DNA of 55,814 nt from Pseudozyma flocculosa PF-1. Taxonomy: Eukaryota; Basidiomycota; Ustilaginomycetes; Ustilaginales; Ustilaginaceae. The stretch covers positions 33,832-89,645 of the forward strand of contig NW_006920887.1 in the NCBI RefSeq assembly GCF_000417875.1, in the 5' to 3' direction. The notes under the pieces were generated by a model. That model ran no database searches, was not told where the DNA came from, and saw only the letters and a program-made list of their open reading frames with translations. Shown piece after piece: positions 30,878 through 53,128 of this stretch. Made by a program: the position numbers and the translations under genes. Every line of letters begins with the position of its first letter. The first letter of the stretch is position 1.

Positions 30878-31894
30878 TCAAAGAGCGCTGTCGTCAGGAG
30901 AGAGGCGAGACTGAGGGCGCGGGTCCGGCCCGAGAGCGCCGCTTGACGCCTTGAACGTGAACGGCGTGCGCCCGCTGCTGACCCGCGGGTCAGAGACCAC
31001 CTCTGCCTCTCGACGGCGGTCGTGACTTGCGAGGGGCGCACCAGATCGGCCGGCAGCCTCACTGCCGTGCTTGGGCTGCGCGCCGGTACCATTAGAGCTG
31101 CTGCTGCTGCTGTTGGCGCGGCCGCCGCCGTTGACGTTGTATGCGGGCTCGTCCGGGTTCTGCTTGCGCTTCTTGTGCGTGGCGACCGCCTCATCGGTCA
31201 CCGCGGGGCCGGGGGCGATGCTGTCGAGGCGCAGGATGGTCCTGACCGACCTCTGCTGCGTCGTGCCTCGGACGTGCACGTTGACGAGAAAGACTTCGAG
31301 CGCATACGAGGGGCTGCCAGCTCGAATGGCCGTGTCGATGCGGATCTGGATGCCGACGTCGCCGTAGAGCGAGGCCTGCATGGTATCGAGGCAGGCGGCG
31401 AGGCTGGGCTGCTTCTCGACGGGGCCGCCCGGGCGCTGCAGGGTGCACTGCACGTCGTCGTCGATGCCGACGGCCTGCCACGAGTAACCCCGCTGGCGCT
31501 GGGCGTCTTCGTCCCGGAAGCCGACGTGCAGCACTTCGCCGAGCTTGCGGCGGACGTTGTCCATGGTCGGGACGGGCAGGCCGAGGCTGACGGTCATGTG
31601 CTCGGCGGCGTGGCAGAGGCTGGGCTTGCTGTGGAGCGTCCAGCGAGCACGGCCGTCCTTGGCGGTGCAGACCGGTTACTCGATGATGGCGTCCGGGACG
31701 ACGAGCGTGGGGCTACGCGTGCCGTCTGGGAACTTGATGGCCACGTACTCGCCGCTCAGGTGGGCCGTTCCGGGGTGGGCGTGGACGACGCGCATCGTCT
31801 CGATGTCGAGCCTGCTCTGGCGACCCAGAACCGCGGCCGGCGTCGCGCGGATCTCGCCATTCTCGTAGGCGATGTACTGGTCCCTCGACGCCAT
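30878..31894 (-). pseudogene. tandem-array family member 1 (in-frame stop)
   Basis: Leftmost, hence most downstream, of the eleven paralogues; product unknown. From the ATG at 31894 it reads MASRDQYIAYENGEIR, then IKFPDGTRSPTLVVPDAIIE, and hits TAA at 31676-31678 (codon 73). The same frame continues with PVC...GRARWTL and MTVSLGLPVP, SLYGDVGIQIRI, LVNVHVRG and RSVRTILRLDSI. The sister member 6 has Tyr at the stop position (LEYPPC), so TAC to TAA is the simplest explanation. Read through, it would be 338 residues with a tail that is basic (THKKRKQ) and Ser/Asn/Gly-rich. No GT-AG intron of sensible size removes the stop. It could be a recent pseudogene or a base-call error. Closest relatives by eye are members 6 and 9. 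Confidence 0.75.
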
Positions 31895-33073
31895 GGCGAT
31901 GCGCGGGCGGGCGGGGGGCTGGCTAAGTGTGTGACTGCCTGGCTGACGGCCTCGTCGCTCGGAACGATTGAGCCGTCCAAATACGGCGACGGATCGATGT
32001 TGCCTTGACGAAGAGCGGCGATCGTACGAGGAGGAGTGAGGGAAAGGAAAGACGAGGGAGAGGTCGTATGCAGGCAGCAAGGGATGGTGGTGGTGGTGGA
32101 AAGAAGGCAGGCGGCCACGCGCATACAGCCCTGCCCACCTTTCGTTTTTCGGTGGGGCGCGGGCGTCGCGTCGGGGCAGGCGCAGGTCTTGGGGCAGGCG
32201 TGCAGGCAGGCTTCTTCCCGCCCGCGCCTCTGCGCTGTGCCCGCCCGTCTATCTTTGAGCCGTTGAGCCTGGTGCTGGATCACGACACTGCCTGGCTGTC
32301 GTTAGCTTCGACTTGGCGCTACTACCCGAGATGCTGGTGGTGGCAGGAAAGGCGAGGTGCGCATGTCCGCCTACCTCTTCACAGCTCGCCAGGTGTCAGC
32401 CCTGGCCTGCTTTGAGATGCAGACGCAGATGCCCGTCATTCTCCTGCCAGCGATCGCACAGCGACGAGGCGGCGGGTCGTTCGGCGTAGGTGCCGAGGCT
32501 CTGCCATGCTCTCAGCTCCACCTGCAATCGCATCGACATCGAGCCCGGTCGGATGAAGGAGGAGGCCTCGGTCTTTGCTCTTGAACGGCGGCCCAAGCTC
32601 CGGTCCAAGCAGCGTGCAAAGGGGCAAAGCTCGAGCCGATCCTCGTCCCCTTGCCTCTAGAGGCTATTCCGCCGCATGGATGGGCGGCTGGGGCAGCGAA
32701 TAGGTGACGTCGGCCGTCAGAGGCCGCAGAATCTCAGCAGGGGAACAAGAGAAGACGGCGGCGGGACACGATGCTTCGATTTCTGGACACGGACGACCAT
32801 CTGGCAGTTGCTGGCCCGACAAGGAGAGAGATACTGGCCGCGTCCACCGCGGCGACCTCGTTGCGAGGGCGATTCGCGTTGCGATTCGAGGTCGAGAGAG
32901 GGATCGATGCAAAGCGTCGGAACAAGGGCGATGTCGACATGAGTTTTTCTTGGTCGTTGCACAGCGCTGCTTGCAGCGAAGGCCGGCATGCGGTGCGAGC
33001 GTCGGGCGAAAACCGAGCTGCTTGAGCCGCCGATGCCGCTGGTCGGGAAGCGCAGGTCGAAGTCCGACGGGAG
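31895..33073. other. spacer between array members 1 and 2
   Basis: About 1.2 kb. Near member 1 it has GGTGGTGGTGG at 32085-32097 (CCACC in the sense direction). A frame on the minus strand at about 32396-32540 (SSLCDRWQENDGHLRLHL) loosely recalls the family's SSLLCDVG segment but is too weak to call. Otherwise I see nothing. Confidence 0.5.
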
Positions 33074-33660
33074 CTACCTCACGGAGCTGCACACCGAGGC
33101 CTGGTCGGGCTCCTTGTTGCTGCTCGCCTGAGCAACGGAAGCTTCGCTTCCAGACAGGCGTCCCTGTCTACGCAACAGGGCCATGAGCCGGGGGTCGGCA
33201 GCAGCGCCCGTCGAGACGTTGTCGAGGCGGAACACGGTGCGCGCCGACGACAGGCTCGTCAGCTCCCGTACGTGGACGTTGACGAGGCAGCTGTCTATCA
33301 CGTGCGGTGCACAGTAACCGTGGCCCACCGGCAAGAGCCGGATCTTGATACCGACATCGCAGAGCAGCGAGGCTCCCGTCTCGTTCAGAAACCCGCTGAA
33401 CCCGTCGAGCTTGACGATGCTGCCGTCCCCGCGCGTGACGGTGAAGGGCAGGTCGGCTTCGACCTTGGTGACCGACCACATGTATCCGTCGTGCTCCGCT
33501 TCGTCTGGAAGATCCTGTTATGAGCCTGGGATTCTGCTTCGGATCTCTTTCATGAGCTCGGTCGGGATGCCAAGGCTGATGGTGAGGTGGTCCGGCTTGG
33601 CGGTAGGTCGGTTCTTGCCGTCAGGGGTCCAGCCGGGGCTGAGGCCTGGAGCGCGGTTCG
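33074..33660 (-). pseudogene. tandem-array family member 2 (5'-truncated, in-frame stop)
   Basis: The C-terminal two-thirds of the family is recognisable: GWTPDGKN...HLTISLGIPTELMKEI, a TAA at 33518-33520, then WSVTKVEADLPFTVTRGDGS, GASLLCDVGIKIRL, LVNVHVRELTSLSSARTVF and RLDNVSTG. The frame upstream of about 33700 is closed by a stop, and no YPDGT-containing N-terminal part is found in any frame up to member 3, so about 75 residues are missing. The downstream piece (33074-33481) alone is an open frame of 135 aa beginning at an internal Met. Clear homology to intact neighbours, clear loss of the 5' part; almost certainly a pseudogene. Confidence 0.8.
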
Positions 33661-34304
33661 CGACCGCCCCGATGCTCGTCTGGCACGCACGATCCTGCGC
33701 TCGCTACTCCAGTCCTATGCTTTGCCTCTCGGCCGAGGCCGCCGTCATACCACCACGGAGCTGGCGGCAGCACCGCTTCGACTGCAGGGGAGAGCGAGAG
33801 CCGGACCCGCGCATTCCAACGAGCGGGGTGCGAAGGACGGCGCACGAGCACAGGCAGTAGTGGCTATGCCGAGGAATGGGGCGGAAGTGGCGTCGATGCC
33901 AGCCGCATGCATGCTTTTTCAGGCACTAGCAGGCTCGAAGACAGGGTCTCAGTGGAGATGGGAGAAGCTCGGTGGGTTGATGGATGGACGGGGTCTCGGG
34001 CGTCGGGAGGGCGCGCCTCGTGGCGACGAGCTGGGGCTGGCGGCATTCGGGGACGACGCTCTTGGACGATCGCTTGGTCTGCCCCAAGACGCTCCAAGGA
34101 CTTGCTCTTGCTCGCCCCGTGATGCCCGGTGGGTCGTTCGGGCTTGTCTCGCGGTGTCAAGGGAACGAATCTTGGCGTGTGCGACGGGACCCGTCGCCGG
34201 GGATCTTGCCGTACCTCGAGGTTAAGGGCGGTGAAGAGGCGAATCGGAAAGAGGAGGATGTGCCTCGACCCATAGATTGCCGAAGCGCCCCGCTAGGCCT
34301 GGGT
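33661..34304. other. spacer between array members 2 and 3
   Basis: The place where the missing 5' part of member 2 and its promoter should be. No family motif, TATA box or domain is seen. Confidence 0.5.
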
Positions 34305-35093
34305 TTAGTGCTTTTCTCCGGCACAGCTGCGTCGGAAGGCGCACGAGAGCATGTCGCTCAGGGACGGCACTTGAGCGGCGTAGGCGGCGAGCATCGGCTC
34401 CAGCTCGGGGCTTGCATGGCCGCCCGTATCGACGTTGTCGACGCGATGGATGGTGCGCGGCGACGAGAGGGGCGTGTGGTCTCGGACATGGACGTTGATG
34501 AGCCTCATCTCGAGCTGGAAGAGGCCCGGTTCGTCCTCCATGGGAGCCAGCGACATGCCGACGCCGACGTCGCCGAGAATCGAGCTCTTGGCCGTTTGCA
34601 TGAAGTCCTCGACGTCGGCGCCCTCGAACCTTTTGCCTCCCGGGACGGCTGCAGTAAAGGCAAGGCGTCGAGGCGCCTCAACGGCGAACCAAATGCGCTC
34701 GCCGACCACGACCCTCTTGGCGGGTATCACGAATGTAGCAAAGAGCTTCTTGTAGACGGCGTCCATGACGGACGTGCGAACGCCGATCGAGATTGTGTGC
34801 GCGACGCCCTTGCCGCACTGCCTCGGCAGGTCGTCACGGGCCCATTTGGGCTCGCCCGACGTCGCCGGCGTCCATTCGACGACGACGTCCGAGAACGGGA
34901 CGACAGCGCTCTGTGTGCCGTCGGGGTACCGCACGAGTACGGTTTTGGGACGGGCGTCGGCGAAGCGCAGCCTGTCCTCGCTTTTGTCCACGGGGCGGAT
35001 GACGAAGTCGATGTTGATCATGCTGTCGGGTGTGAGCATGGCGGCCGGCTTGAAGCGGACGTCGCCATCGGCGTCGAAGCAGGCGTAGCTCAT
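34305..35093 (-). CDS. tandem-array family member 3, intact, unknown function
   Basis: Uninterrupted 262-aa frame and the clearest reference copy of the family. No signal peptide or membrane helix, so probably cytosolic or nuclear. Motifs in order: YACFDADGDVRFKP (3-16), VRYPDGTQSAVV (54-65), DVVVEWTP (69-76), WARDDLPRQC (84-93), ISIGVRTSVMDAVY (101-114), WFAVEA (135-140), KSSILGDVGVGMSL (169-182), LINVHVRDHTPLSSPRTI (198-215), HRVDNV (216-221), then a short tail. The alternating hydrophobic pattern suggests mostly beta structure. The start at 35093 matches the N-terminal motif of its relatives. An AATAAA-type box lies about 230 bases upstream, at 35325-35332. I do not recognise the family and propose no function. 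Confidence 0.8.
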   Translation of the reverse strand: MSYACFDADGDVRFKPAAMLTPDSMINIDFVIRPVDKSEDRLRFADARPKTVLVRYPDGTQSAVVPFSDVVVEWTPATSGEPKWARDDLPRQCGKGVAHTISIGVRTSVMDAVYKKLFATFVIPAKRVVVGERIWFAVEAPRRLAFTAAVPGGKRFEGADVEDFMQTAKSSILGDVGVGMSLAPMEDEPGLFQLEMRLINVHVRDHTPLSSPRTIHRVDNVDTGGHASPELEPMLAAYAAQVPSLSDMLSCAFRRSCAGEKH

Positions 35094-35548
35094 GGCGTGG
35101 GGGAGGCGGTCGAGCCGGCTTCGGAAAGGGGTATATGCGGGGTCAGGAAAGGACGAGAGGGGTTTGGGGCCAACAGACAGAAAAGGGAGAGGTCGAGCGT
35201 GGCGGATAGTGGAGGAGAGAAGAGAACAGGAGGGGAGATCAGGGAGACGAGGCCGTGGCGATGGTGGTGGCTGTGGTGGTGGCGCGGAGGTGGGCCTGGC
35301 CTGGCCTGCCTTGGCCCGCCTCTCTTTATTCCCTTCTCGCGCCTGCTGGCTGGCGTGGAGCGGCCCTGGCCTGGCTCGAGCGTCTGGCGCCGACTCTCGC
35401 CTGCCTGCCTGACTCTGGGCTTCCGGTCCTCAGGCGGCCATCTCGAGCTGGCGCACACGCATGGCTTGGCTTGGCTAGGCCAGCAGCCGCACCAGCAGAC
35501 GATCTCGGCTCTGCTCCTGCTCCTTCGCCGCAACAGGGCGCCCGCATC
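35094..35548. promoter_or_regulatory. upstream region of array member 3
   Basis: Contains, in the sense direction, GGGAATAAAGAG (35325-35336, TATA-like), CCACCAC tracts (35260-35285) and a CCTGGCCTGG cluster (35297-35310). The part beyond 35450 is the 3' flank of member 4. Confidence 0.5.
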
Positions 35549-36499
35549 CTAGGTCGACTCCTGCTTGCCCGTCTTTGGGCGCTTCTCGCTCTTCTCGTCG
35601 TCGCAAGGCCTCTTCCCGCTTTCACACGGCCTCTTCTCGCTGTCATAAGGCCTCGTCTGCCCGTCCTCTTGCTTCTCTTGCGGCAGCTGTCGGCCCTTGG
35701 TCTGGCCGGCCGCCTTTTGCGGTTCGCGCTTGTCCTTCTTGGTCGATCCACGCCGCCTGCTGCCCAGGCGAGTACGCTTCGTCGCCGCCTCGGTCGGCGG
35801 ATCGACGTCGTCGACCGGGGGCTTGAAGAAGCCGGCCGACATCTCGACACGGGGCCAGCGGTCCCACAGACCCTGGCAGACCTGCTTGGCCGTGACGATG
35901 AGCCCGAGGTGGCCACGCGCAGCCCGCTCGTCAAACGACAGGCTGATGTCGACGTCGAAATTGTAGCGCCTGCAGCCCTTGACGTCTTCCATCATGCCCT
36001 CGATGCCCTCGACGCGGTGCATGGGCTCGCCCTCGAGCCAGATGGCGAAGCCGTCGCCGTGCGTCTCGGCCAGGAACCAAGTGAAGCCGCCGTGCTCGTG
36101 GACCGCGTCGACGGCGTAGGTAAAGTGCCGCCCGTACCTCGATTCCAGCTCCGCGATCGTCCTCGAGTCGATGCCGATGCGGAACAGCACCGACGTGTTC
36201 CGGGCGCGTAGCCTCGTCAGCTGCGGCGCCGTCTCCCAGTGTGTCCTTGCGACGACGGGCGGTGTGCGCTGGATGACGGCGTCCATCGAGGCCATCATAT
36301 CGCCCGGCCTCTGCGGATGCGGCGTCACGACGAGGGTGCGCAACGTCTTTTGGTGGGTTCGATGCGGTCCCTTGGACTTGCGGGAGGGCGGAGTGGACTG
36401 CTCGATGGCGTGCTTGTGGTCGCGTCGGACGGTTGCTTCGACCAGAGTGGCAGATGAGGATGTGTAGTCTGTGCCGTGGCTCTCGAGGGACCAACGCAT
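35549..36499 (-). CDS. tandem-array family member 4, divergent, with Lys-rich tail
   Basis: Open frame of 316 aa from the ATG at 36499 (MRWSLESHGTDY). It lacks the YPDGT and LCDVG wording but keeps the layout: FRIGIDSRTIAELESRYGRH in place of the I-S-x-G-V segment, GGFTWFLAETHGDGFAIWLE matching the W-F-x-x-E segment, VEGIEGMMEDVKGCRRYNFD, then VDISLSF and GHLGLIVTAKQVCQG. The C-terminal 90 residues are strongly basic with repeats (YDSEKRPCESGKRPCDDEK, KRTRLGSRRRG) and resemble a nuclear localisation region. Position, strand, size and spacing fit the array. Membership is inferred from these partial matches and needs a profile search. Confidence 0.6.
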   Translation of the reverse strand: MRWSLESHGTDYTSSSATLVEATVRRDHKHAIEQSTPPSRKSKGPHRTHQKTLRTLVVTPHPQRPGDMMASMDAVIQRTPPVVARTHWETAPQLTRLRARNTSVLFRIGIDSRTIAELESRYGRHFTYAVDAVHEHGGFTWFLAETHGDGFAIWLEGEPMHRVEGIEGMMEDVKGCRRYNFDVDISLSFDERAARGHLGLIVTAKQVCQGLWDRWPRVEMSAGFFKPPVDDVDPPTEAATKRTRLGSRRRGSTKKDKREPQKAAGQTKGRQLPQEKQEDGQTRPYDSEKRPCESGKRPCDDEKSEKRPKTGKQEST

Positions 36500-37160
36500 G
36501 TCGGTCGAGATAGCCCGGTGTAGACAGGCGAGGGGGAGGTGAGGCACAGCGGGTGGTGCGCAAGCCGCACTATTTGGGAGAGGGGCCGGGGATGGTGGTG
36601 GCGGGAGCATGGGAAGACGGGGCGAGACATCGCGCTCTCGCGCCTCTCAAAAGATCCCCAGCGCGTTCTGCAGGCTGTTCGCGTGCCTCCTCGTCGTCGT
36701 CTTCTGCTTCTTCCCACTGCAAGAACTTCTACGCCTGCGCCGTCGAGCGAGCAAGCAAGCACAAAGGACCATGCATGACGTTTGCGATTCAAAGGCGGGC
36801 GCGGGCGCTTACGCCCCGGCACTGACGCGCTCCTCCAGTCCTCTGCCGCCGCCTCTTTAGGTCCGTACCGGTGCTGCGTGGTTCGCAGCGGCCAAAGCGC
36901 CAAACGCCCACCAGAAGCCGGCCTGCCGTCCATCCTTGCTTCGGCCGAGAAGAGCCCATCGCGACGACTTCATTTGACCAACGCGACGCCCCGACGCGAG
37001 TTGACGCAATCTGGGGCGCAGGAGGAAAAAAAGGAAAGCGGGGCAAGGGAGGGTGGCGAGGTGAGATCCGCCATTCCGAGGGCTGCTGCTGGTGGAGTAG
37101 ACGTCGCCGGACCACTTACGGGCCATCGTTTCCACGGCGGCGTCCTTCGTCCGTCGTGCT
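36500..37160. other. spacer between array members 4 and 5
   Basis: Holds the member 4 upstream region: sense CCACCACCATC at about 36590-36600, a weak AAATAG at about 36571-36577, and CCTAAAGAGGCGGC at 36847-36860 resembling the TATAAAGAGGC boxes of other members with one base missing. No coding frame was recognised. Confidence 0.45.
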
Positions 37161-37829
37161 TCAGACGGTGCGAGGAGCCGACTGGAAGGAGATGCCGCGC
37201 ATGTGGACGCCGACGACGTCGACGGCGAGGCTGGCCACCCCACGGCCATCGATGGGAGCGCAGATGCTGAGGCAAACCTCGCACATGCCGGGTCCGCCAA
37301 GCTGGTGCAGAAAGCGCTCCAAGTCGGGAACCACGACTGACCTGCCATTGTCGGTGTTGATTGTGAAGCCGGGGTTGTGCCATGTGCCAGCCACAAGCCA
37401 GGAGTGGTCTGCCTGCTGGACGCTGGCGTTGGTGAGGTCCAGCGTGGCGTTTTGCGCCTCGACCCCGTTCCTGGTGCAGTCAAGGAGCGGTTGCAGAATC
37501 GACGTGGGAAGGCCAAGGCACAGGGCGCTGTCCTGGTCGTTCCTGCTGCAGTGCCAAGGCAGGCACTCGTATGACGGAGACGAGACCGGCACAAACTCGA
37601 CCACGGCTCCCGCGACGAACACGAGACCGCTCGGAGGGGCGATCGGGTACTGAACGCTGAGGTGAACGACTCTGTCGGAGTCGGTCTCGGCCTGCAGATC
37701 CGGTTCGGTCTGGGCCTTGAGCTCGATGTGATGTCCGCGAAGAGCTTCCGGAGTGACAAACATGGCGGGCGCCAGGCGGTAGATGTCGCCGTCGATGTTC
37801 ATGGCAGAGTCGTGAGGGACAGAAGTCAT
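37161..37829 (-). CDS. tandem-array family member 5, short C-terminus
   Basis: Open frame of 222 aa from the ATG at 37829. Motifs: MNIDGDIYRLAPAMFVTPEAL, VQYPIAPPSGLVFVAGAVVE (the YPDGT site is changed to YPIAP), CLPWHCSRNDQ, CLGLPTSILQPLLDC, SWLVAGTWHNPGFTI, LERFLHQLGGPGMCEVCLSI (the LCDVG site altered), VVGVHMRGISFQSAPRTV. It stops immediately after RTV, where other members continue with R-L-D-N-V and a tail. Either this copy naturally lacks the tail or the TGA at 37161-37163 is a recent truncation. A TATA-like GGGTAGAAAAGG lies about 165 bases upstream, at 37993-38004. No signal peptide. Function unknown. Confidence 0.7.
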   Translation of the reverse strand: MTSVPHDSAMNIDGDIYRLAPAMFVTPEALRGHHIELKAQTEPDLQAETDSDRVVHLSVQYPIAPPSGLVFVAGAVVEFVPVSSPSYECLPWHCSRNDQDSALCLGLPTSILQPLLDCTRNGVEAQNATLDLTNASVQQADHSWLVAGTWHNPGFTINTDNGRSVVVPDLERFLHQLGGPGMCEVCLSICAPIDGRGVASLAVDVVGVHMRGISFQSAPRTV

Positions 37830-38476
37830 GGTGGTCGCTGCTCCTGGTCTCCGAGGGTGAGGAGGTTTGGCGCTTGGGTGTCGAAGAGTATACGAGGGCA
37901 AGAGGAGCAGAGAGGACGGTGTTTTCTGACTGTGGTGGCGGGATGGAGGTGAAGGAGGGGAGGCAAGCGAGTTTGGGTGTCGCCAGGCCGCCTTTTCTAC
38001 CCCTTCGCCGCGTGCGGGGTGGAGGGCCTCGCCCGCAGCCAAAGTCGCGCGCTCCAAGCTGCCTGTCCTCGCCGCCGCCCGCGCCCAGCAGGAGCCGCTT
38101 CCAGATTCGTTCCTCAGCCGACTGCGCAGCTGGACGACTCGTCCGAGGCCATGGCGCAGGATGTCCCCTCCCTCTCGTTAGGTAACAGCGACTGGACCGA
38201 GACAGGCAGCATCGTCCCGGAGCGTACCTCACAACGGCCCGTCTGGCAACACGACCGGCGTCTTTGCAACGAGCACAGACGCTCTCGTAGTGACCTGGCG
38301 CTCCGATGATCGATCGAGTGATCAAGGCGTCATGTTGGAGTTGCTGATCCTACTCAAGGTTCAGACACGCGTGGACGTAGATCACTCGACTCCAGTTCGA
38401 GATGCCGACACAGCGGGCTAGAGGTCTCGATGCTCGAGACGCTGCGAGGCTTGAAGAGGCCAGAAGAGCCACACGG
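37830..38476. other. spacer between array members 5 and 6
   Basis: Left part is the member 5 promoter (TATA-like box at about 37993-38004). A plus-strand frame at about 38151-38309 starting MAQDVPSLSLGNSDW is short and unsupported. Nothing else was seen. Confidence 0.5.
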
Positions 38477-39283
38477 CTAGGCGGGCGTGCTCGGGTCGCT
38501 CTTGGCCGTCTCGGAAGCGTGGCCCGCAGCGCTGCTGCCCATGACGGCATCCTCGTCGGTCCCTTCCAGCTCGCGCTTGCGCTTGTCGATCCTGCGCAGC
38601 AGCTCATGGTCGCGCCTGGTTCTCGAAGCGACAATGTCAAAATCGAGGATGTGACGGTTGGACGAGGCGTCAGAGAGGCCCTGGACGTGGACGTTCTTGA
38701 ACTCGAGCTGGAGGGTGCACTTGGCCTCCTCCTTGGCCGCCCTTTTGACGGTCATCTCGACGCCGACGTCGCACAGCAGCGACGACCTGGCGCTGTCGAG
38801 GAACCCGAGGAGGTCCGTCTGCTTCTCGATCTCGCCGTCGCGGCCGATGTAGGTGTAGGGAGGGCTGTCCTTGAGGCCGACCATGTACCACGCGTGGCCG
38901 TTGTGCAAGTCGCCGGCGCCATCGGTGCGCACAAGCTCCTGGCCGTGTGCAATGTCGCCCTGAATCCCGTGCCATATCAGGTCGTCGACGCCGTCGGGCA
39001 GGCCGAGGCTCACGACCGTGTCTTTGCGGCCGTGGAGGCTGCGGGAAAACGAGTAGAGCGTCCAGCGGGCGATGCCGCCAGAGGCGCACGGCGGGTACTC
39101 GAGCACCGCGTCGGCGATGACGAGCGTGTGGCTCGACGTCCCGTCCGGGTATATGAGCAGCACCGACGACTCGAGCTCGTTTTCCTCGCAGACCGAGACC
39201 TCGAACTCGCTCTCGTCGCTGAGGGCGCCCATCGAAGTGATGCGGATGTCGCCGTGCTCAAAGGTGACGTACTGATCGTCCAT
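38477..39283 (-). CDS. tandem-array family member 6, intact, unknown function
   Basis: Open frame of 268 aa. The ATG at 39283 gives MDDQYVTFEHGDIRI, matching members 1 and 9; the frame is open further upstream, but that part lacks family motifs. Motifs: LLIYPDGTSSHTLVIADAVL, EYPPCASGGIARWTL, VVSLGLPDGVDDL, AWYMVGLKDSPPYTYIGRDG, LLGFLDSARSSLLCDVGVEM, LEFKNVHVQGLSDASSNRHI, LDFDIV, and a basic then acidic tail (DKRKRELEGTDEDAVMGSS). With members 1 and 9 it forms a subgroup defined by QY[VI][TA][YF]E and ARWTL/LRWSP. No signal peptide or membrane segment. Function unknown. Confidence 0.78.
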   Translation of the reverse strand: MDDQYVTFEHGDIRITSMGALSDESEFEVSVCEENELESSVLLIYPDGTSSHTLVIADAVLEYPPCASGGIARWTLYSFSRSLHGRKDTVVSLGLPDGVDDLIWHGIQGDIAHGQELVRTDGAGDLHNGHAWYMVGLKDSPPYTYIGRDGEIEKQTDLLGFLDSARSSLLCDVGVEMTVKRAAKEEAKCTLQLEFKNVHVQGLSDASSNRHILDFDIVASRTRRDHELLRRIDKRKRELEGTDEDAVMGSSAAGHASETAKSDPSTPA

Positions 39284-39776
39284 CTGGGCGCGAGCAGGCT
39301 GGAGCTTGGATCGCGCGGTGTACGCGGTGGGAAGGTGGTGGTCGGGAAGAGAAACGTTCTCGGCGGCAGCGTGGATGCGAAGGGCAGGGCGAGACGCATG
39401 CACCGCGCGCCTCGCCCCTGACCAACGCCTCGGAACGCGACCGGTGCATCCAAACCCCCCTGCCGCAACGTCCCTACCTGCCGGCTGAAATGCTGCATGG
39501 CGATCGCCCCGCATCCCGCGCACATCTGCTAGATCCCGGCCTCTTCGCCTTCCTGTGGATCCACACGAGCTGGCAAACGACGAAGGAAGACACGCAAACG
39601 CCAGAAGCGGATTGGATTCGACGCCCTTGCTGAGTCGCGATAGCGGTCTCGGTGCCCACACCGTACTGGATGTGGGTCAGGATACGAAGCAGCAGGTGGG
39701 CTCCCGTCGAGCCTTTGGACTGTCTCGCCGCCACGTCCGTGTATCTTGCCGCGCGGAGTGGGCTGTCTAGCATCTC
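39284..39776. other. spacer between array members 6 and 7
   Basis: Sense CCACCACC at about 39333-39340 near member 6. A minus-strand frame at about 39530-39773 reads HLLLRILTHIQYGVGTETAI and SSFVVCQLVWIHRKAKRPG, more protein-like than most spacer frames, but it matches no family motif and I make no gene call. No TATA box. Confidence 0.4.
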
Positions 39777-40551
39777 TCATGCCCTGTCCATGTCGACCTT
39801 CTCGCGCGCCTCGTCCGGAGTCAGACCGTGCTGCTGGAGCGCAGCCAGCAGTCTGTTGCTGACCACCTTGCTCGGAGCCGGAGCCTCGGCACGCTTGACG
39901 GTGCGGGGCGCCGAGGTACCGGCCAGATCGCGCAGATGCACGCTGACCATCTCGACGACCATGTGCTTGACGGCTCCATCGACATGGTCAAGCTCCACGC
40001 CGACGCGCAGACCGACGTCGCAGAGCACCGCATGTCGAAGTGTCTGGACGACACGTTCGAGGTCCGGCCTTGCGCTGATGCTGCCGTCCTCGAGCGCGAC
40101 CGTATAATCCGAGGCCTTGCGCAGAGCCGACGACGAACCACGACCGGTCGCCGTCCTCCTGGCCCTCGTCCTCGATCCCGACCTTGCCGTATCGTTTTAG
40201 AGCTTGGCGGAGAGCGGCAGTGAGCCACTTCCAAAGCTCAGTCCGTACGCCGACGCACAGGCCGTCGCAGCAAGGATCCTGATCGCAAATGAACGGCAGG
40301 TCCCCGCGCGTCCAGGCCGCCGTTTCCGAGTCGCCGGGGACGAAGTCGACAAGCACGTCGGTCAGGAAGAAGACGTCGCTTTGCGTGCCGTCCGGGTACA
40401 CCACGGCCGCTTCGAGGTGGTCGCGGACTTTCTTGCTCCTGAGGACCCGTACCGTGTGGTCTGAAGTGGCCTTGGCCTTGAGGTAGGCCGAGGGCAACAG
40501 CCTGACGGTCTCGCCGTCGGAGCTGAAGGTGGCGTACTGAGTCAAAGACAT
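39777..40551 (-). pseudogene. tandem-array family member 7 (single-base frameshift)
   Basis: From the ATG at 40551: MSLTQYATFSSDGETVRLLP, VVYPDGTQSDVFFLTDVLVD, AAWTRGDLPFICDQ, CVGVRTELWKWLTA and RSWFVVGSA. The frame then runs into unrelated text, and the family resumes one base over as DYTVALEDGSISARPDLERV, HAVLCDVGLRVGVELD, VSVHLRDLAGTSAPRTVKR and an LLAALQQHGLTPDEA tail ending at 39777. The shift lies within about 40111-40140 and corresponds to one extra base (total span 775 nt). The only GT-AG interval that would repair it is 19 nt, too short for an intron. TATAAA at 40726-40731 and CCGCTTCCGCTTCC-type elements upstream suggest a promoter was or is present. Confidence 0.75.
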
Positions 40552-40725
40552 CCTCGCGAGTGATCTGGAGGGAAGGGAGAGGTCGAGCTGAAGCTGGCAG
40601 AGGAGCTGTGGAAAGCAAGAAGGATGCGGCGAGGCGGTGGATCGGGTGAGGAAGCTTAACGAGGTGGTGGGCGTGAAGGCAGAAGGGATGAGGATTTGGC
40701 GATGAAGGGCATCGCAGGCCGCCTC

Positions 40726-40731
40726 TTTATA
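40726..40731 (-). promoter_or_regulatory. TATAAA box of array member 7
   Basis: Minus strand GGTATAAAGAGGC, 175 bases upstream of the member 7 ATG. The same core plus flank (GGTATAAAGAGG) occurs upstream of member 10. Confidence 0.65.
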
Positions 40732-41032
40732 CCTTTTGCCGCCCGTTGGGTGGCGTCCAACCTCTGCGCTTTTCACCCTTTGACGCCACCTCCGCCCGCC
40801 CATGCCAAAGAAGCTGCGCTGAAAGAGACTGCTCAATCGACGGCGCCGCGTAAAAGGAGGGTCAATCGAGCAGTCACTTCCGCTTCCGCCTCTCTACGGC
40901 CGATCCCGACGCGGAAGGTACAAGAGCGGTGTTGCCTCCGTCCCGCGCCGGTTGGAGCAGCACTTTGAAAGGGACCGCCCAAGGTGGCGGGCCGCTCGAT
41001 TGCCTCAATGGAGATCGACCAAGGTCGAAGGG

Positions 41033-41050
41033 CCGCTTCCGCTTCCGCTC
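41033..41050 (-). promoter_or_regulatory. GGAAGCGGAAGCGG upstream element (member 7 side)
   Basis: Sense strand GAGCGGAAGCGGAAGCGG followed by CCCTTCGAC. A near-identical copy including the flank lies at 45858-45884 upstream of member 10, and a shorter version at 40876-40892. Shared sequence suggests duplicated promoters; the bound factor is unknown. Confidence 0.5.
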
Positions 41051-41715
41051 GGCCGCCGCAGAGAGCTACCTCTTGACTCGGACGGAGGCGGAGCGAGGAG
41101 CGCAGCTGGACGGCTCTTGTTCCGCATCACGAGGCCAGAATCAGCAGAGAGGCGGAAAGGCATGGCGTGAGAACCCTAGAATGCTTGGGTCGCTGAGCCG
41201 AAGCGCAGAGCCTCCGCCTCGACGAGATGGTGGAAGAGGAAGCACGGCATGAACGACCAGGCGCCTTTTTCCCAGGTCTAGCGATGGTGCCGGACGAGAC
41301 GGATCGCGCCTGTCCGTTCCGCACCGAGCCGCCGCCGAAGACGCCAGCACACCTCGACAATGACACGGGCGGCGTCAAAAATTCATTGCGGCGGGTAGCG
41401 CTCAAAGGTGAGCGAAAGGGAGGCAGGCGCGAGAGACTTTCGTCTTCTTGCGCAGTCAAGCCGCATGCCGGATGGTGACGTCGGGAGAGGAGTCGGGCGG
41501 GCCTGTTTGTCCGGATCATCGTGCGTGGTTCGGCGGGGAAGAGACGTGCGCTGCCTTGTCGGAGCTGGCGAGGCGGCATGCATCTGAGCGTTGGGCCGGA
41601 ACTGCGGGGCCGAGGGAACGACGGAGAAGAGGGTCGCCGCTGACTCGTGCGGTCTAGCGAGTCCATTGAAGGCCTCACTGGACGCGGACGGGAGCCAGAC
41701 GATGCTGCTGTGCAT

Positions 41716-42605
41716 CTAGCGCGAGGTCGACCCGAAGGCGTTGCCTGGAGCCTCTTGCTTGACGGCCTTGGCGCTGGAACGGCCATCGCGCTTGCCGTCG
41801 GTCGGAGCATCGCGCTTGCTGCCTCCACCGGTGTTGGTCGAGTGGCGCAGCGTGCCGCCAGTCAGGTGGATACCGCGATCCGCGAGCTTCTTGACGAGAG
41901 CCTCGTTGACCGCGCCGTCGGTGGCGACAGTCTCGACGGCTACGACGGTGCGAGGAGGGGACAGCTCGGTAAGGTCTCGGACATGAAGATTGACGATCGT
42001 CACCTCGAGACGCGTGTCCTGCAGCAAGCCGAACAGTCTCGGAGGGCCCAGGAATACGACGTCGATCTTGAGGCCGACGTCGCACAGCACCGAGCTCTTG
42101 ACCTTCTTGAGAAACGCTTGGAAGCTGTCCATCTTGGTGATGTTGCCCTGCTTGAGGGTCAGCGTAAAGGCCGTCGCGGGGAGCGTCTGGGCGAAGAACC
42201 ACGAGTAGTTGCCGTACAGCTGGCCTTTTCCAGTGACGTTGACGAGCGGATCGGCATTGATCTTGGCCACTATACCACTCATGACCTTGGAGGGCAGGCC
42301 CACGCACAGGGTGCTGCGCGCAGCCGCGTCGCAGAAGCGCGGCATGTCGTTGCGAGACCAGCCGGCAGGGTTCGCCTCAGCGGGCGTGTAGTCGACGATG
42401 CCGCGACCGACGACAAAAACGGTGCTGACAATACCGCCCGGAAGCGTTAGGTAGCACGCTGACGTCGCTCCACTGAGCCCGTAGAGGGCTTGGGCTCGCG
42501 GAGCTTGATTGACGTGCTGTTGACATTTTCGGGCGTGATGACCGCGTTCGAAGTGAAGCGGACCTCGCCTTCGTTGGTGAAGCTGGCGAAGGTGTTGGTC
42601 GACAT
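41716..42605 (-). pseudogene. tandem-array family member 8 (single-base frameshift)
   Basis: From the ATG at 42605: MSTNTFASFTNEGEVRFTSN and AVITPENVNSTSIKLREPKP, then the frame stops at 42447-42449. The family resumes one base back as CYLTLPGGIVSTVFVVGRGI, VDYTPAEANPAGWSRNDMPR, TLCVGLPSKVMSGI, NYSWFFAQTLPATAFTLTLK, KVKSSVLCDVGLKIDVVFLG, VNLHVRDLTELSPPRTVVAV and a tail with KRDAPTDGKRDGRSSAKAVK, ending at 41716. The shift lies between about 42450 and 42500 and equals one missing base (total span 890 nt). No intron restores the frame. The downstream part alone is open for 209 codons. A TATA-like CATACATAAG lies at 42681-42690. Pseudogene or sequencing error. Confidence 0.75.
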
Positions 42606-43311
42606 GCTGTCGGAATCGAAGTGAAAGGGATGATGTGGAAGCTCGGAAAGGAGGACAGCCGTCGGAGGGCGCGAGCTGCTCTTATGTATGCTCGCGAGCA
42701 GGGAGAGCCCAGCAGATCCTCTGGTGCGGAGGGCACAGCTTCTCTGCGCTCCTGAACCAAGCGTCTGCTCGGCCGTCTGATGGGCGGGTCTGCCTGACTT
42801 CGCGCTGAGGCTGCGCCGATAGCGTTGTCGTCGCCTGCGCTGCCGAACTTGCTGCGCCCGTCCTTCACTCCCATCATGAGGGGGGAAGAGCCGCAAGGCA
42901 GGGCGGCGCCGCTCCACAGCCGATCATACAGCGCGCGGACCTCATCTGGTGCCTAACGGCGCCCCGAAGCGGCGTGGTGGCAGCCGAGGTGTCCGGAAAA
43001 AGGGATGAGGAACCTCACGGCCGGCAGCGGCAGCCTCGACGGCACTCGACCGGCTCCTCGCTCGCACCTGAGCTCGCTCTGCACCAATGCGTTCAGAAAC
43101 GGCTTCTGCCCGCGATTTGAAGGTGTTGGCACCGCAGAGACCGCCGAGGGTCTGCGAGGCGGTGGTCGCGGCCCTCGGCCGGTGAGGCGCAAAGAAGGCA
43201 TCGAACCCGACCCCAGTCTAAGCATCGCGAGGCATGTGCGTTCCTCGGGCGAAGGCAACGACCGCAGGATCCCCGGCCAGACGTCGAGGGGCCTGTCGGC
43301 CAGGGCGCCGG
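42606..43311. other. spacer between array members 8 and 9
   Basis: The left part is the short member 8 promoter region (TATA-like at 42681-42690, about 80 bases from the ATG). No coding frame or known motif in the remainder. Confidence 0.5.
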
Positions 43312-44088
43312 TCACTGCTGCGGCCTGTCGAGATGCTGCTGTCGGGGGCTGATGCCCGCGTCCACCGCCACGTCTCCGCGTCTGGACTTGTTGACCCTGT
43401 CAAGCAGATCCGGGTCGGGACGGAGGTGCGAGGCAACGCCGTCAAGCTGGAAGATGTGGCGCGGTGTCGAGACATCGGAGAGGCCGTGGACGTGGACGTT
43501 GCAGAGGCCATGCACGGGGCGGAAGCTGACAAGGTCGCCTTCGTCTGCCATGCGCTCAAGCCTGAGGGTGACGCCGACGTCGCACTTGAGAGACGAGCCG
43601 ACCTCGTCGAGAAAGGCGGGCAGGTGCGTGCGGCTGTGGACCGAGGAGTCCGGATCGACGTAGGTGAAGACCATGTCGTCCTCGACCTCGATCGCGTGCC
43701 AGGAGTAGGCGCTGTCCTCTGGATCCTCGTAACGGAGCTGGATCCTGCCGGCCATCATGGCCTTGAACTGAAAAACTCGGCAGATCTCGAGAGGCAGACC
43801 GAGGCTGAGCACCGTCGCGTTGCGGTCCCGACTGGCGAGGGCTGCCGTAACCGACCGAGATGGCGACCAGCGCAAGGTGCCGGACGAGACGCAGGCTGGA
43901 TGCTCGATGACCGCATCTGCAAGGACGGTGACGGCGCTGGTGGTGCCGTCGGGGTAGCGGACTGCAACATCGACGTGATCGAGGTCGTCCGGGCGCAGCT
44001 CGACTGCAAAGTCGGTGCCTGGGCGAAGGACGCCCTGCTCCATGATGCAGATGCGGCCGTGCTCGTAGGTGACGTACGGCCCGCCCAT
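43312..44088 (-). CDS. tandem-array family member 9, intact, unknown function
   Basis: Open frame of 258 aa. I chose the ATG at 44088 (MGGPYVTYEHGRICIMEQG) because it aligns with members 1 and 6; the four codons upstream begin with TTG. Motifs: VAVRYPDGTTSAVTVLADAV, IEHPACVSSGTLRWSP, VLSLGLPLEICRVFQF, YSWHAIEVEDDMVFTYVDPD, LPAFLDEVGSSLKCDVGVTL, LCNVHVHGLSDVSTPRHIF and QLDGVASHLRPDPDLLDRVN, with a short basic tail. It retains all family motifs without interruption. A CCACC tract (44183-44198 in sense) lies upstream; no TATA box was found. No signal peptide; function unknown. Confidence 0.78.
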   Translation of the reverse strand: MGGPYVTYEHGRICIMEQGVLRPGTDFAVELRPDDLDHVDVAVRYPDGTTSAVTVLADAVIEHPACVSSGTLRWSPSRSVTAALASRDRNATVLSLGLPLEICRVFQFKAMMAGRIQLRYEDPEDSAYSWHAIEVEDDMVFTYVDPDSSVHSRTHLPAFLDEVGSSLKCDVGVTLRLERMADEGDLVSFRPVHGLCNVHVHGLSDVSTPRHIFQLDGVASHLRPDPDLLDRVNKSRRGDVAVDAGISPRQQHLDRPQQ

Positions 44089-44439
44089 CTTGAGTGACAA
44101 CGTAGCGGATGGACTCGGCGGTGAGGAGCAGGCGTGCAGCAGCGCGTGATGTCAAAGGTCGATGGGCAGCCGCCCGAAGTGGTGGTGGTGGTGGTCGAGA
44201 GAGAAGCCGCTCCTCAAGCGCGCGCTGGACGTCAGCGCAAAAAGGCTGCAGCCCGCCTGTCGAATTGAGCGAGGCGGGCCAGGCGCGAGCGGCTCCTTGG
44301 CCTCACTGCGCCCTCTTGACGCTCCTCGATCGCGCTGCTTGTCGTCACGAGACACATACACGCACGCACGCAACGGAGTTTCTCCACGCTCAAATTTGCT
44401 TCGAAACTTTACCACGGCGCAGGCAGAACGAGCTGTCAC
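44089..44439. promoter_or_regulatory. upstream region of array member 9
   Basis: Sense CCACCACCACCACC at 44183-44198 about 100 bases from the ATG. Otherwise nothing recognised. Confidence 0.4.
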
Positions 44440-44672
44440 ATGCCAAGGAACACGGTGGAAGACCTTCTGTGCCTGGCTGAGCACGAAGTGCAGAGGAAGA
44501 GCTCGACAGCAGGGACGCGACATGCAGAGCCCGACGCCGTGCTAAAGAGCTTTGTGCTCAACGTAGAAGGAGGACTTGGCGCCTGCTCTTCTTCAACGAT
44601 GAGACTCGCTACTTCCGCCTCCTGACGCCGTTCGAAGTCTCAGACGGAGCCATGGTGCCCTTCGCCTCGTAG
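44440..44672 (+). pseudogene. plus-strand gene remnant, frameshifted, unidentified
   Basis: On the strand opposite to the array, one frame reads MPRNTVEDLLCLAEHEVQRK, then DAVLKSFVLNVEGGL. A shift of one base near 44575-44585 leads into WRLLFFNDETRYFRLLTPFE and VSDGAMVPFAS before a TAG at 44670-44672. Both halves have strikingly protein-like composition for a spacer, and their junction is contiguous, so I read this as the end of a broken plus-strand gene. No intron fits. I do not recognise the protein. Upstream of 44440 the frame remains open for some distance (STLKFASKLYHGAGRTSCH) but is not convincing. Confidence 0.45.
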
Positions 44673-44810
44673 AGGACATGCCCGGGTCGAAAGCAAGATT
44701 TGAGGTCTGGGGCGATCGAGAGAAGGCTAGACCGCTCTTGGCTGGATCGCGCTCAGGCGGCGAGGACGTTGGCTTCAGCGGTGCATGTATGCCCTCGTGA
44801 GCCCACAGAT

Positions 44811-45530
44811 TCAGCTGCGTCGATGCGGCTTGATCTTCTCCAGCAGAGCTTTGCTGGCCTCCTTGCGTGTAGGGGACTGCTGAATGAGATTGAGAGTGAG
44901 AGGGGCCGAAGTTGTCGTGAGGTCCCAGACGTGGACGCAGCTAATATTGAAGTCGAGTTCGCTCCAGCTACCCGCGGCGTCTTGGTGAACGCGGACGATG
45001 GCGGCGATGTCGCAGACCAAAGAGCTCCTGATCTCTTCCTGCCAGGTGCAGTGGTACTTGATGCGGCGGATGCTCCCGTTACTTTTCCTCAAGGTGAACC
45101 CGTTGATGCACTCCGCGTCGGCGGTGAGCCAGGAGAAGCCGTTGTGCTTCTTGCTCTGGTCGACCAAATCACAGGCCGGATATTTGTTGAGGACGGCGAG
45201 TCGAAGGTTCATTACGATGTGACCCATGATGTCGTCGGGAACGCCGATGCAGAGAGTCTCGCCGGTCATGCACAGAGACGGAACGCCTTCGCGGAAACCG
45301 TCGTCAAGCCGATCGGGATTGTAGTCGACCACCACTCCCGACAGAAAGGCAAAGGTGCTCTCCGCACCGTCCGGATACTGCCACACGGCCTCGAGGATGT
45401 ATCTGCTCGAATCATCGTGCCTCACTCGCAGGCCGACATCTTGATAGTTCTCGGTGGTGATGTAAGCCTGGGAGGAGAGGCGGATCGACTTGCCATCGTT
45501 GCTGAGCTTGGTGTAAGCGGTGGACGCCAT
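44811..45530 (-). CDS. tandem-array family member 10, intact, unknown function
   Basis: Open frame of 239 aa from the ATG at 45530 (MASTAYTKLSNDGKSIRLSS). Motifs: VWQYPDGAESTFAFLSGVVV, DYNPDRLDDGFREGVPSLC, LCIGVPDDIMGHIVMNLRLA, HNGFSWLTADAECINGFTLR, EEIRSSLVCDIAAIVRVHQD, FNISCVHVWDLTTTSAPLTL and a Lys/Glu tail ending IKPHRRS. It is closest in layout to members 7, 8 and 11. Codon third positions are noticeably less GC-rich than in neighbouring genes. A promoter with TATAAA (45781-45786) and a GGAAGCGGAAGCGG element (45866-45884) lies upstream. No signal peptide; function unknown. Confidence 0.78.
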   Translation of the reverse strand: MASTAYTKLSNDGKSIRLSSQAYITTENYQDVGLRVRHDDSSRYILEAVWQYPDGAESTFAFLSGVVVDYNPDRLDDGFREGVPSLCMTGETLCIGVPDDIMGHIVMNLRLAVLNKYPACDLVDQSKKHNGFSWLTADAECINGFTLRKSNGSIRRIKYHCTWQEEIRSSLVCDIAAIVRVHQDAAGSWSELDFNISCVHVWDLTTTSAPLTLNLIQQSPTRKEASKALLEKIKPHRRS

Positions 45531-45780
45531 CGTGGATCAGCTTTGTGGCCAGAGGTGCGTGCGGTCGTCGGGTAGTGTAGCGCAGTTGTGGCTCGCGAGC
45601 TGTGAGGTGATGTGGCGAAGCAAGAACGGGGCGACGATGTCGTTGAACGGGTGACGTATGGTGAGGTACAAGGAGTGGGATGGAGGGCGAATGTCAAGAG
45701 GCGTAATCGGAGGATAGGCGAGGCTGGCGTGGAGATCAGGCGTGAAGGAGAAGAGGGAGGAGGGTTGTCAGCTCGCCCTC

Positions 45781-45786
45781 TTTATA
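45781..45786 (-). promoter_or_regulatory. TATAAA box of array member 10
   Basis: Minus strand GGTATAAAGAGGG, about 250 bases upstream of the member 10 ATG and about 85 bases downstream of the GGAAGCGGAAGCGG element. The same box with its flank precedes member 7. Confidence 0.65.
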
Positions 45787-45857
45787 CCTTCGTCCCTCAC
45801 CGACTGCCCCGGACCGTCTACGCCACGGGAGGCGGAGGAGCAACAGAGGAGCGGCAA

Positions 45858-45884
45858 AAGTCGAGGGCCGCTTCCGCTTCCGCT
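45858..45884 (-). promoter_or_regulatory. GGAAGCGGAAGCGG upstream element (member 10 side)
   Basis: Sense GAGCGGAAGCGGAAGCGG plus the flank CCCTCGACTTT; matches 41021-41050 upstream of member 7 almost base for base over about 28 positions. Confidence 0.5.
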
Positions 45885-46476
45885 CCCTGCTTGGCGTCGG
45901 CGGAAAGAGGATCCGCTCGACGGCATGCAACGGCGATTGGACAGTTCAGCCCTTCGCCGGAAGGAGGTGGTGAACGGATCAGATCGATTCGGGAGTGAGG
46001 GCGATGGGGAGGGCCGAGCGGATCGCTTGGCTTCGATGCGAGGCGACAAAGTCAAAAGGTATCGGACGAATCGTGGATGCGGAAAGGAGCTACACGGAGG
46101 ACGGGAGCGGAGAGAGTCGCATGGTCGGCCCCGTCGAGAGTCGCGCAAGCAAAGGACCTCGCTCCGCCGCATCGCATCATCGTGTGGCTTCTCCGCTTGT
46201 CCTGCAAAGGCGTACGGCGACGACGTGGGTGAATCTCCGGACACGACAGGGTAGGACTATCTTGTGGCGCGAGCAGCGAGGCGCATGTTGCAGGTGCTGA
46301 TTGGCGCCGCGATGCTGTTGACGACTTGGGCTCCGACAAAAAGGCGGACACCGTTTCATTTTTCCGAGCCAGCGCCAGAGTGTCGACGAGGCTGTGCTAA
46401 GCGCCTCCGGGGCCGGCGCAGGACCAGCCGGGGTCTTCTGGCGAGCGACGAGGGCGAACTCGAGTCGAGGCGGCTG

Positions 46477-47225
46477 TCAGGCCTCCTCTTTCTTGACGCG
46501 CTGGTCCAGAGGGCTCTCCTTGGAGTGCAGTCCGCGCTCCTCGAGCTTCTTGAGGAAGCCCAAGTCGACGTCCGTGTTGCTGGCGACGTTGTCGAGGCGC
46601 ATGACGGTGCGACGAGACGCCTTGTCGGTGAGGTCCTTGACGTGGACGTTGACGACGGTCGCATACAGCTCGCCCTGGGGGTGCTTCTTATTGACCGTGG
46701 TGCTGAACTTGAACCCCACGTCGCAGAGCACGGAGCTCTTGGCTTCCTGCATGAAGCTCTCCAGGTCCGGCATCGTCGCGGTCGATCCGGGGCGTAGTTG
46801 ATGGTGAACTCGGTCTGAGGGCTCGTCTTGGCCTCGAACCACTTGTAGCCTTCGTGCTCAGAGCCGCAGTCCGACGCGAGGATGTTCTTGAACTTGGCGC
46901 GCATATCGGTCGTGATTGCGGCAGGCACACCCACAATGAGCGTGTGCTGGTTGTAAGAGCAATAGCGAGGCAGATGGTCGGGAACGCATCGCATCGATGC
47001 CGTATACGCGGGCTTGAACTCGATGATGACGTCCGAAATTGCCCAGATGCCGCTCAGCGTACCGTCTGGGTACTTGACCAGAAAGGCCTCGCGATTGAGG
47101 GTGGGAGGATCGCCCTCATCGAGCTGACGGGCAGGCTGCATGCTGTAAGGACCACAGGATCCGATGACACCCAAGGGCGTGACGCGGGCGCCTCCGTTCA
47201 TGTCGAATTGGAAATATTGGGTCAT
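46477..47225 (-). pseudogene. tandem-array family member 11 (frameshift at a C run)
   Basis: First member in transcriptional order. From the ATG at 47225: MTQYFQFDMNGGARVTPLGV, FLVKYPDGTLSGIWAISDVI, CVPDHLPRYCSYNQHTLIVG, VPAAITTDMRAKFKNIL, GYKWFEAKTSPQTEFTINYA. The next run of C (plus-strand GGGG near 46789-46792) is one base short of keeping frame. The family resumes one base back as GSTATMPDLESFMQEAKSSV, LCDVGFKFSTTVNKK, VVNVHVKDLTDKASRRTVMR, LDNVASNTDVDLGFLKKLEE and an acidic/basic tail ending VKKEEA at 46477. Total span is 749 nt. The homopolymer position makes a sequencing error a real alternative to a pseudogene. Confidence 0.75.
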
Positions 47226-51417: not shown

Positions 51418-53128
51418 ATGGCCGATAGACCCGTCGTCGTCGACAACGGTACCGGCGTGAGTGGCAGGGCAGCGCATGGCAGCGTAGAAACCGGTATGGC
51501 CCTCATGGCGCAGACGAGAAGCGCGACGACTGACACGCTGTCCTTTCCCTCCTTGACCCTTGAATGACCCGCCACCGCCGCCGACACCGCCCCTCAGTTC
51601 GTCAAGGTCGGCTATGCGGGCTCCAACTTCCCCGAGTTCGTCTTTCCCTCGATCGTCGGCCGGCCGATCCTGCGTACCGAGGAGCGCGATGCCCTCTCGA
51701 GCAACACGGGAACGCAGATCAAGGACATCATGGTGGGCACCGAGGCCGAGGAGCTGCGCAACTACCTGCAGATCACCCAGCCCATGGAGCACGGCATCGT
51801 AAAGGACTTTGGCGACATGCGACATGGTGAGTGCGACGCCGGCCTGGCAGGGGCCCCGTGTCATCCCCGGACCCTCGTCGAAGCCCAGCAGCTGACCCGC
51901 GTCCCCTCCCTCCCTCGTCTCTTCGACCCCTCGTCCCCTCGTCGTCCTTGCGAACCCCGTCCTCTGGTCCCTTTCGCTGGCTCCGCTCGCTGGCCAGTCT
52001 GGAACTACACATTCGACGAGAAGCTGCGCATCGACCCGCAGGGGCGCAAGATCCTGCTCACCGAGCCCCCGATGAACCCCAAGCGCAACCGCGAGGAAAT
52101 GTGCCAGATCATGTTCGAGGAGTACGGCTTCGACGGCGTCTACATTGCTATCCAGGCGGTGCTGACGCTCTACGCCCAGGGCCTCCAGACGGGCGTCGTC
52201 GTCGACTCGGGCGACGGCGTGACCCACGTGGTGCCCGTCTACGAGGGCTTTGCGCTGCCGCACCTCACCAAGCGTCTCGACGTGGCGGGCCGCGACGTGA
52301 CGCGGTACCTGATCAAGCTGCTGCTGCTGCGCGGCTACGCCTTTAACCGCACCGCCGACTTTGAGACGGTGCGACAGATCAAGGAGAAGCTGTGCTACAT
52401 GAGGTGAGCACGCGGCGGGGCAGTCCGGCCGGGCCCCAGAGTCGAGGCCGTATTGCGAGTGCGAGCTCGAGCTGACGAGCCTGGCCCCCCTTATGCTCCG
52501 GACCGCCTCGCAGCTATGACCTGGACCTGGACAAGAAGCTGTCCGAGGAGACGACGACGCTGGTCGAGTCGTACACGCTGCCCGACGGGCGGGTGATCAA
52601 GGTGGGCTCGGAGCGCTTCGAGGCGCCCGAGTGCATGTTCCAGCCGCACCTGGTCGACGTCGAGCAGCCGGGCGTGGCCGAGCTGCTGTTCAACACGATC
52701 CAGTCTGCGGCCGTCGACACGCGCTCCGAGCTGTACAAGCACATTGTGCTGAGCGGAGGCAGCTCCATGTACCCGGGCCTGCCCTCGAGGCTGGAAAAGG
52801 AGATGAAGCAGCTCTACCTCACCCGCGTGCTCAACGGCGACGGCTCGAGGTTGAAGGTGGGTCCCCCCGCGGAAGAGGTCCGGGCAGCCGCGCGCAAAGT
52901 GACACGTCGCTGAACACCTCGTGCATCCCCTCCTCTGGCCCCGCACCCCTCTCCCCGCAGAACTTCAAGATCCGGATCGAGGACCCGCCACGAAGGAAGC
53001 ACATGGTGTTCCTGGGCGGCGCTGTGCTGGCCGACATTATGAAGAACCGCGACAGCTTCTGGATCTCGCGGGCCGAGTGGTACGAGCAGGGCAAGGAGTG
53101 CCTGGAGCGCCTCGGCCGACACGCCTGA
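51418..53128 (+). CDS. ARP2: actin-related protein 2 (Arp2/3 complex)
   Basis: Arp2 forms, with Arp3, the pseudo-dimer that starts a daughter actin filament; in fungi this drives endocytic actin patches. Exons are 51418-51456, 51598-51826, 51998-52403, 52514-52856 and 52961-53128, giving 394 aa (yeast Arp2 391 aa); introns are 141, 171, 110 and 104 nt with GTGAGT/GTGAGC/GTGGGT donors. Conserved text spans the junctions: [72 protein letters not shown]. The actin-fold nucleotide-binding motifs [22 protein letters not shown] and [20 protein letters not shown] are intact. A 13-codon first exon split after DNGTG is a common arrangement in fungal actin-family genes. Very secure. Confidence 0.96.

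Follow-up and report, generated by a model that had tools for sequence, protein, structure and literature searches.

An eleven-copy array of fast-evolving paralogues in Pseudozyma flocculosa PF-1 and the tentative likeness of their predicted fold to gp2.5-type single-stranded DNA-binding proteins

Introduction

What kind of protein is specified by a head-to-tail array of eleven diverged genes that match no named domain? The array occupies about 16 kb between PMT4 and COG3 in the genome of Pseudozyma flocculosa PF-1, all eleven copies lying on the minus strand of a 55,814-nucleotide stretch of contig NW_006920887.1, from position 33,832 to 89,645 (the window). The species is described as a biocontrol agent (PMC6079639), and strain PF-1 is listed as living epiphytically on leaves, in association with clover powdery mildew (PMC5897528). 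An earlier note on this DNA had recognised the array and had found no named domain to fit its products. The explanation that we favour, at a probability of roughly 0.45, is a lineage-specific, fast-evolving family of probably intracellular proteins which would fold as an oligonucleotide/oligosaccharide-binding (OB)-type barrel of the gp2.5 shape and bind single-stranded nucleic acid.

Paralogy and distribution of the family

The window contains 918 stop-to-stop open reading frames (ORFs) of at least 30 amino acids in its six frames. These were searched using phmmer with the longest open single frame of each of the eleven members. Ten members were joined directly, the best pair being members 6 and 9 (about 1e-40), and member 4 found only itself. 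Ten pieces – the C-terminal pieces of members 1, 8 and 11, the N-terminal piece of member 7, and members 2, 3, 5, 6, 9 and 10 – were then compared all against all, leaving out member 4 and the counterpart pieces of members 1, 7, 8 and 11. E-values below 1e-3 were obtained in 72 of 90 ordered comparisons (letter-shuffled control: zero matches), with pairwise identities of 18–36% over aligned columns. A profile built from the ten pieces matched the held-out C-terminal piece of member 7 (E=4.7e-20) and the N-terminal pieces of members 11 (8.1e-20) and 1 (1.2e-7), followed by the upstream piece of member 2 (2.1e-4), member 4 (3.3e-4) and the N-terminal piece of member 8 (0.0053); the top non-family ORF reached 0.064 and the top reversed ORF 0.66. 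The match to member 4 spans about 180 colinear residues, and its sequence marks it as a real but outlying family member, on weaker evidence than that for the other ten.

The array and the paralogy of its eleven copies are thereby confirmed, ten by phmmer and member 4 through the held-out profile; the earlier note had put the identity at perhaps 20–35% by eye. Its view of the locus as a birth-and-death array is supported. In the whole-genome search (23.05 Mb, 33 contigs), members 3, 6, 4 and 10 and the C-terminal piece of member 8 gave 12, 10, 2, 9 and 12 matches, respectively. Apart from a single match of member 4 attributable to chance (E=3), all of these fell within the array; for the five members used as queries the family is confined to one locus in this genome.

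Searches of about 5.8 billion proteins, which depend on shared five-residue words and were run with no control query, found relatives from this genome only (3 of 5637 candidates, 1 of 4149 and 1 of 924). Their sensitivity is limited, since the alignment search missed member 9 though an entry for it is present, and they do not establish that other smuts lack the family, least of all distant relatives of it. Member 3 had no relative in IMG/VR or among prokaryote genomes, and a tblastn search of phages with member 9 returned eight records (best E=0.2), none meaningful; such searches detect close relatives only. That no named domain fits, as had been supposed, was borne out: Pfam gave no family for ten of the eleven members (member 7 left out), nor did PHROGs, NCBIfam and PADLOC (14 rows each), and PDB sequences gave no match above chance to member 3 or two profiles, the best E-value in all of these searches being 0.074. 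Pfam PF10991 (DUF2815) was silent in this genome and equally silent in every control genome. By title and abstract, no description of this family was found in the literature.

Predicted fold

AlphaFold2 models were produced for members 3 and 9 from a common 14-row alignment. The member 3 model has a predicted local distance difference test score (pLDDT) of 67.3 and a predicted template-modelling score (pTM) of 0.64, and the member 9 model values of 72.4 and 0.68. For both, the top solved structures are T7 gp2.5-type single-stranded DNA-binding proteins (SSBs), comprising CP312R of African swine fever virus, the SSB of phage Enc34, DUF2815 and T7 gp2.5 itself; this group ranks first as a block, with 122–169 aligned residues. 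In a Foldseek search of a viral structure library the named matches to both models were almost all giant-virus proteins (E down to 8.8e-7). The suggestion that the fold might be undescribed is weakened: because both models rank gp2.5-type SSBs first and the viral library ranks giant-virus proteins first, an already described fold of OB type is the likelier option, though this falls short of proof. We regard an OB-type barrel of the T7 gp2.5/giant-virus SSB shape as moderately supported by these models.

Under the favoured explanation each gene would specify one domain of about 200–220 residues, arisen by tandem duplication and fast decay of a lineage-specific family in a Pseudozyma-type fungus. 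It is predicted to open with short strands at the N-terminus; next come a beta hairpin at YPDGT and a unit of strand (TLSLGLP) and helix, then a strand containing W, a further helix and, at the end, two long strands (SSxLCDVG... and ...L-V-N-V-H-V-R-D), the whole forming the putative OB-type barrel and being followed by a variable tail. The strand-end motif N-V-H-V-R-D-L-T and the subsequent S-x-P-R-T are conserved among members; the latter, placed after the final strand, is modelled with low confidence, as are the tails, some of which are basic. Single-strand binding is proposed on the grounds of the barrel shape, the small size, the lack of a visible membrane or export signal, the variable and partly basic tails and the strand-end motif. 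The proteins are probably soluble and intracellular and would hold single-stranded DNA or RNA in the groove of the barrel. Their fast divergence with recurrent loss, the birth-and-death mode, suggests a changing target more than housekeeping replication; mobile elements or viruses might, speculatively, be such targets.

Eleven neighbouring genes for which no sequence relative was found supply barely enough diversity for fold prediction, and the fold predicted from them leads to a class of proteins familiar from viruses. gp2.5-type SSBs are not known to be described outside viruses and prophages; short of an exhaustive search, a gp2.5/giant-virus-SSB-like OB fold would be new in a cellular eukaryote. 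Should the binding be real, the gp2.5-type SSBs would gain a fast-evolving branch encoded by a host, and the biocontrol yeast would offer a candidate for a conflict system based on nucleic acids; otherwise, an orphan array has still been turned into a testable fold.

Comparison with known single-stranded DNA-binding proteins

The nearest solved structure, CP312R (8hw5, 7yeq), is a virus nucleoid protein with only 8–10% identity to the models over the aligned residues, and it was not among the PDB-sequence matches of the family profiles. Structures of the Enc34 SSB/DUF2815 family (PF10991; 5odj, 5odk, 5odl, 4klk, 4jg2) hold ranks 2–4, 6 and 8 with member 3 (128–142 aligned residues) and align over 124–138 residues with member 9, but there their rows are tied with unrelated ones. 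The family gave no profile match to DUF2815; the Enc34 gene, moreover, adjoins a DNA polymerase gene and its product has an acidic C-terminal tail. T7 gp2.5 (1je5), a single phage gene product with an acidic tail, differs in its Foldseek E-value of only 0.049 and in having no sequence link. The Foldseek matches include virus groups reported to carry T7-type SSBs, but most of the matched entries are named 'uncharacterized' and their template-modelling (TM) scores are low; these entries are presumably T7-type SSBs.

Several results weigh against the favoured explanation. By hhalign the family was no closer to 12 Enc34/DUF2815 sequences than expected by chance, 140 of 150 column-shuffled controls reaching its score, and the same held for five gp2.5 sequences (119 of 150) and for the C-terminal halves against phage SSB families (134 of 150); the yardstick, Enc34 against gp2.5, gave 95.6%. 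The models share one alignment and so are not independent, and for member 3 the kept model (67.3) scored far higher than the remaining four (58.5–48.0). All structural matches have Z below 8, a level which according to the tool is common for unmatched models. In the member 9 list CP312R alone stands out: the phage rows (5.3–4.7) lie within 1 of MCM (4.6) and of EF-P and human immunodeficiency virus gp120 (4.4), and by the rule of the tool are therefore tied with these unrelated rows, while 4jg2 drops to rank 12 (4.3). Scaled to query length, TM-scores for the viral library were 0.24–0.42, and a plain Foldseek search of PDB with the member 3 model gave nothing at E≤1e-3 (best 0.049, probability 0.30). 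The acidic and often aromatic C-terminal tail of gp2.5-type SSBs, as in T7 and Enc34, was not present in members 3, 4, 6, 9 or 10, among which only member 6 has a mildly acidic tail and member 4 a strongly basic one. Nor do the genes adjoin viral replication or recombination genes, the neighbours being PMT4 and COG3. The last strand carries an almost invariant His, a feature that is not known from SSBs. A resemblance of W/C/NVHV-like spacings to those of the Enc34 SSB, seen by eye, was dropped because the formal profile test failed.

A second explanation is that the products are OB-type or other small beta barrels binding proteins or small ligands, their gp2.5 likeness reflecting a common arrangement with neither shared ancestry nor shared function. 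We consider this possible, if somewhat doubtful: in both models the gp2.5 group heads the list as a block, and its aligned residues outnumber those of most MCM rows (about 91–112, one with 135), and the viral structure search agrees with the gp2.5/giant-virus direction.

The same matches, drawn mostly from large DNA viruses and including CP312R, would also suit descent from an SSB gene of giant-virus or phage type that the fungus acquired and multiplied in tandem, a domesticated viral gene. Such a capture is unlikely. The array is flanked by PMT4 and COG3, no viral gene was noticed in the window (four neighbours were searched), GC content and third-position GC are like those of host genes, and the searches of phages (member 9), IMG/VR and prokaryote genomes (member 3), sensitive to close relatives only, yielded no relative. 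We give similarly low credence to the fuller proposal that the genes are chromosomal descendants of a phage or giant-virus-type SSB, tandem-amplified, evolving as fast as immune or conflict genes and binding single strands inside the cell against viruses or mobile elements; were it correct, they would form a cellular eukaryotic branch of the gp2.5-type SSB family.

State of the individual copies

Five copies are open over the domain (members 3, 4, 6, 9 and 10), one is short (member 5) and five are broken (members 1, 2, 7, 8 and 11), the same count as had been made from the sequence by eye. Members 3 (34305..35093; 262 amino acids), 6 (38477..39283; 268 amino acids from the ATG in family register), 9 (43312..44088; 258 amino acids) and 10 (44811..45530; 239 amino acids), all like the remainder on the minus strand, are intact, full-length single-exon ORFs of 239–268 amino acids; a longer ORF of member 6, with 345 amino acids, starts at 39514. 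Long open frames also lie antisense to member 3 (33984–35552, plus strand) and member 6 (38402–39421, plus strand); as these are expected in coding DNA of 65% GC, they need no gene. Member 4 (35549..36610) is an open, strongly diverged ORF of 353 amino acids with a long basic C-terminal tail.

Member 5 (37161..37829; 222 amino acids) is closed by a TGA immediately after the motif S-A-P-R-T-V. It is deposited as PFL1_05300 of Pseudozyma flocculosa PF-1, in keeping with the smut-type fungus that had been surmised, as a 185 amino acid protein with a predicted intron. Since that intron would excise conserved domain sequence from a stretch whose reading frame is uninterrupted, the deposited model is probably wrong.

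Among the broken copies, member 1 (30878..31894) has one in-frame TAA, open pieces at 31679–31894 and 30881–31675, and a KKRK cluster in its tail. The 5' part of member 2 (33074..33640) is unrecognisable; its open piece, 33077–33517, corresponds to the C-terminal half and is separated by an in-frame TAA from a piece with the motif SLGIP (about 33530–33640). Frame changes affect member 7 (39777..40551; N-terminal part open at 39991–40551, C-terminal part at 39780–40196), member 8 near its N-terminus (41716..42605; pieces 42450–42605 and 41719–42468) and member 11 (46477..47225; N-terminal part open at 46359–47225, C-terminal part at 46480–46857). On inspection of the translations, introns were rejected as an explanation of the breaks; in members 7, 8 and 11 an intron is unlikely because the two frames join within continuous homology, with no spare sequence. 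Sequencing or assembly error may lie behind the breaks in this single assembly; PMT4, COG3 and a neighbouring bestrophin gene are open over approximately 7.0 kb, too little for a strong statement.

Measured in frame, the pieces examined had a third-position GC of 0.73–0.92, whether from open or from broken copies (0.79–0.85 in the N-terminal piece of member 8); in the C-terminal piece of member 7 first-position GC is as high as third-position GC. Since the value is still high in broken copies, the gene losses look recent. The proportions of nonsynonymous (pN, 0.44–0.58) and synonymous (pS, 0.45–0.63) differences were alike in 28 pairs of eight pieces, and as pS is probably saturated and third-position GC high, their ratio is uninformative on constraint versus decay. 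The array could on these data be mostly a decaying relic whose open copies are merely unbroken so far and have no current function, given that the reading frame is interrupted or shortened in six of the eleven copies and no synonymous excess is visible. We judge this improbable, for colinear motifs are retained in the four intact members at 20–34% identity, the coding third-position bias persists, and pN/pS, with its probable saturation, says little.

Export signals and upstream regions

Hydropathy analysis of members 3, 4, 5, 6, 9 and 10 found no 19-residue window above 1.6 on the Kyte-Doolittle scale and, as judged without a signal-peptide predictor, no visible signal peptide, as the earlier note had observed for signal peptides and membrane helices. 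Smut effector clusters are likewise tandem, fast-evolving and lineage-restricted, but their products carry signal peptides, whereas the array proteins have no apparent signal. An effector-like cluster exported without a classical signal is accordingly very improbable, there being no clearly hydrophobic N-terminus in the six members and the fungus being a leaf epiphyte and biocontrol yeast (PMC5897528, PMC6079639); three of the ten induced effectors of the latter study (pf02826, pf00303 and pf02382) carry other numbers, possibly under a different numbering.

The search for a shared promoter motif gave just CCACCACC, which 6 of the 10 upstream regions compared have in common, that of member 2 being excluded; random sets reached 6 in 2 of 50 draws, and no shared motif is claimed. 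A scan for bacterial-type promoters and terminators, whose model is inapplicable to a fungus, gave 2 promoter sites (1.6 expected) and 11 terminator sites (8.9 expected).

Flanking genes

The array is bordered by a PMT-type O-mannosyltransferase gene (25637–28102, plus strand; 822 amino acids; Pfam PF02366, PF16192 and PF02815) and by COG3 (47774–50743, minus strand; 990 amino acids; PF04136 and PF20671), so that both flanks named in the earlier note are upheld by Pfam; PMT4 is the label of its author, the Pfam matches supporting the PMT type. COG3 is adjoined by an exon of the actin family, specifying an actin-related protein (51568–52404, plus strand; PF00022), and a fungal bestrophin-type gene lies at 20710–22281 (minus strand; PF25539). 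Two further minus-strand translations were judged by eye: that of 10787–13600 resembles a tannase/feruloyl-esterase-type secreted enzyme, and that of 7836–8411 a ribosomal-protein L24/RLP24-type gene.

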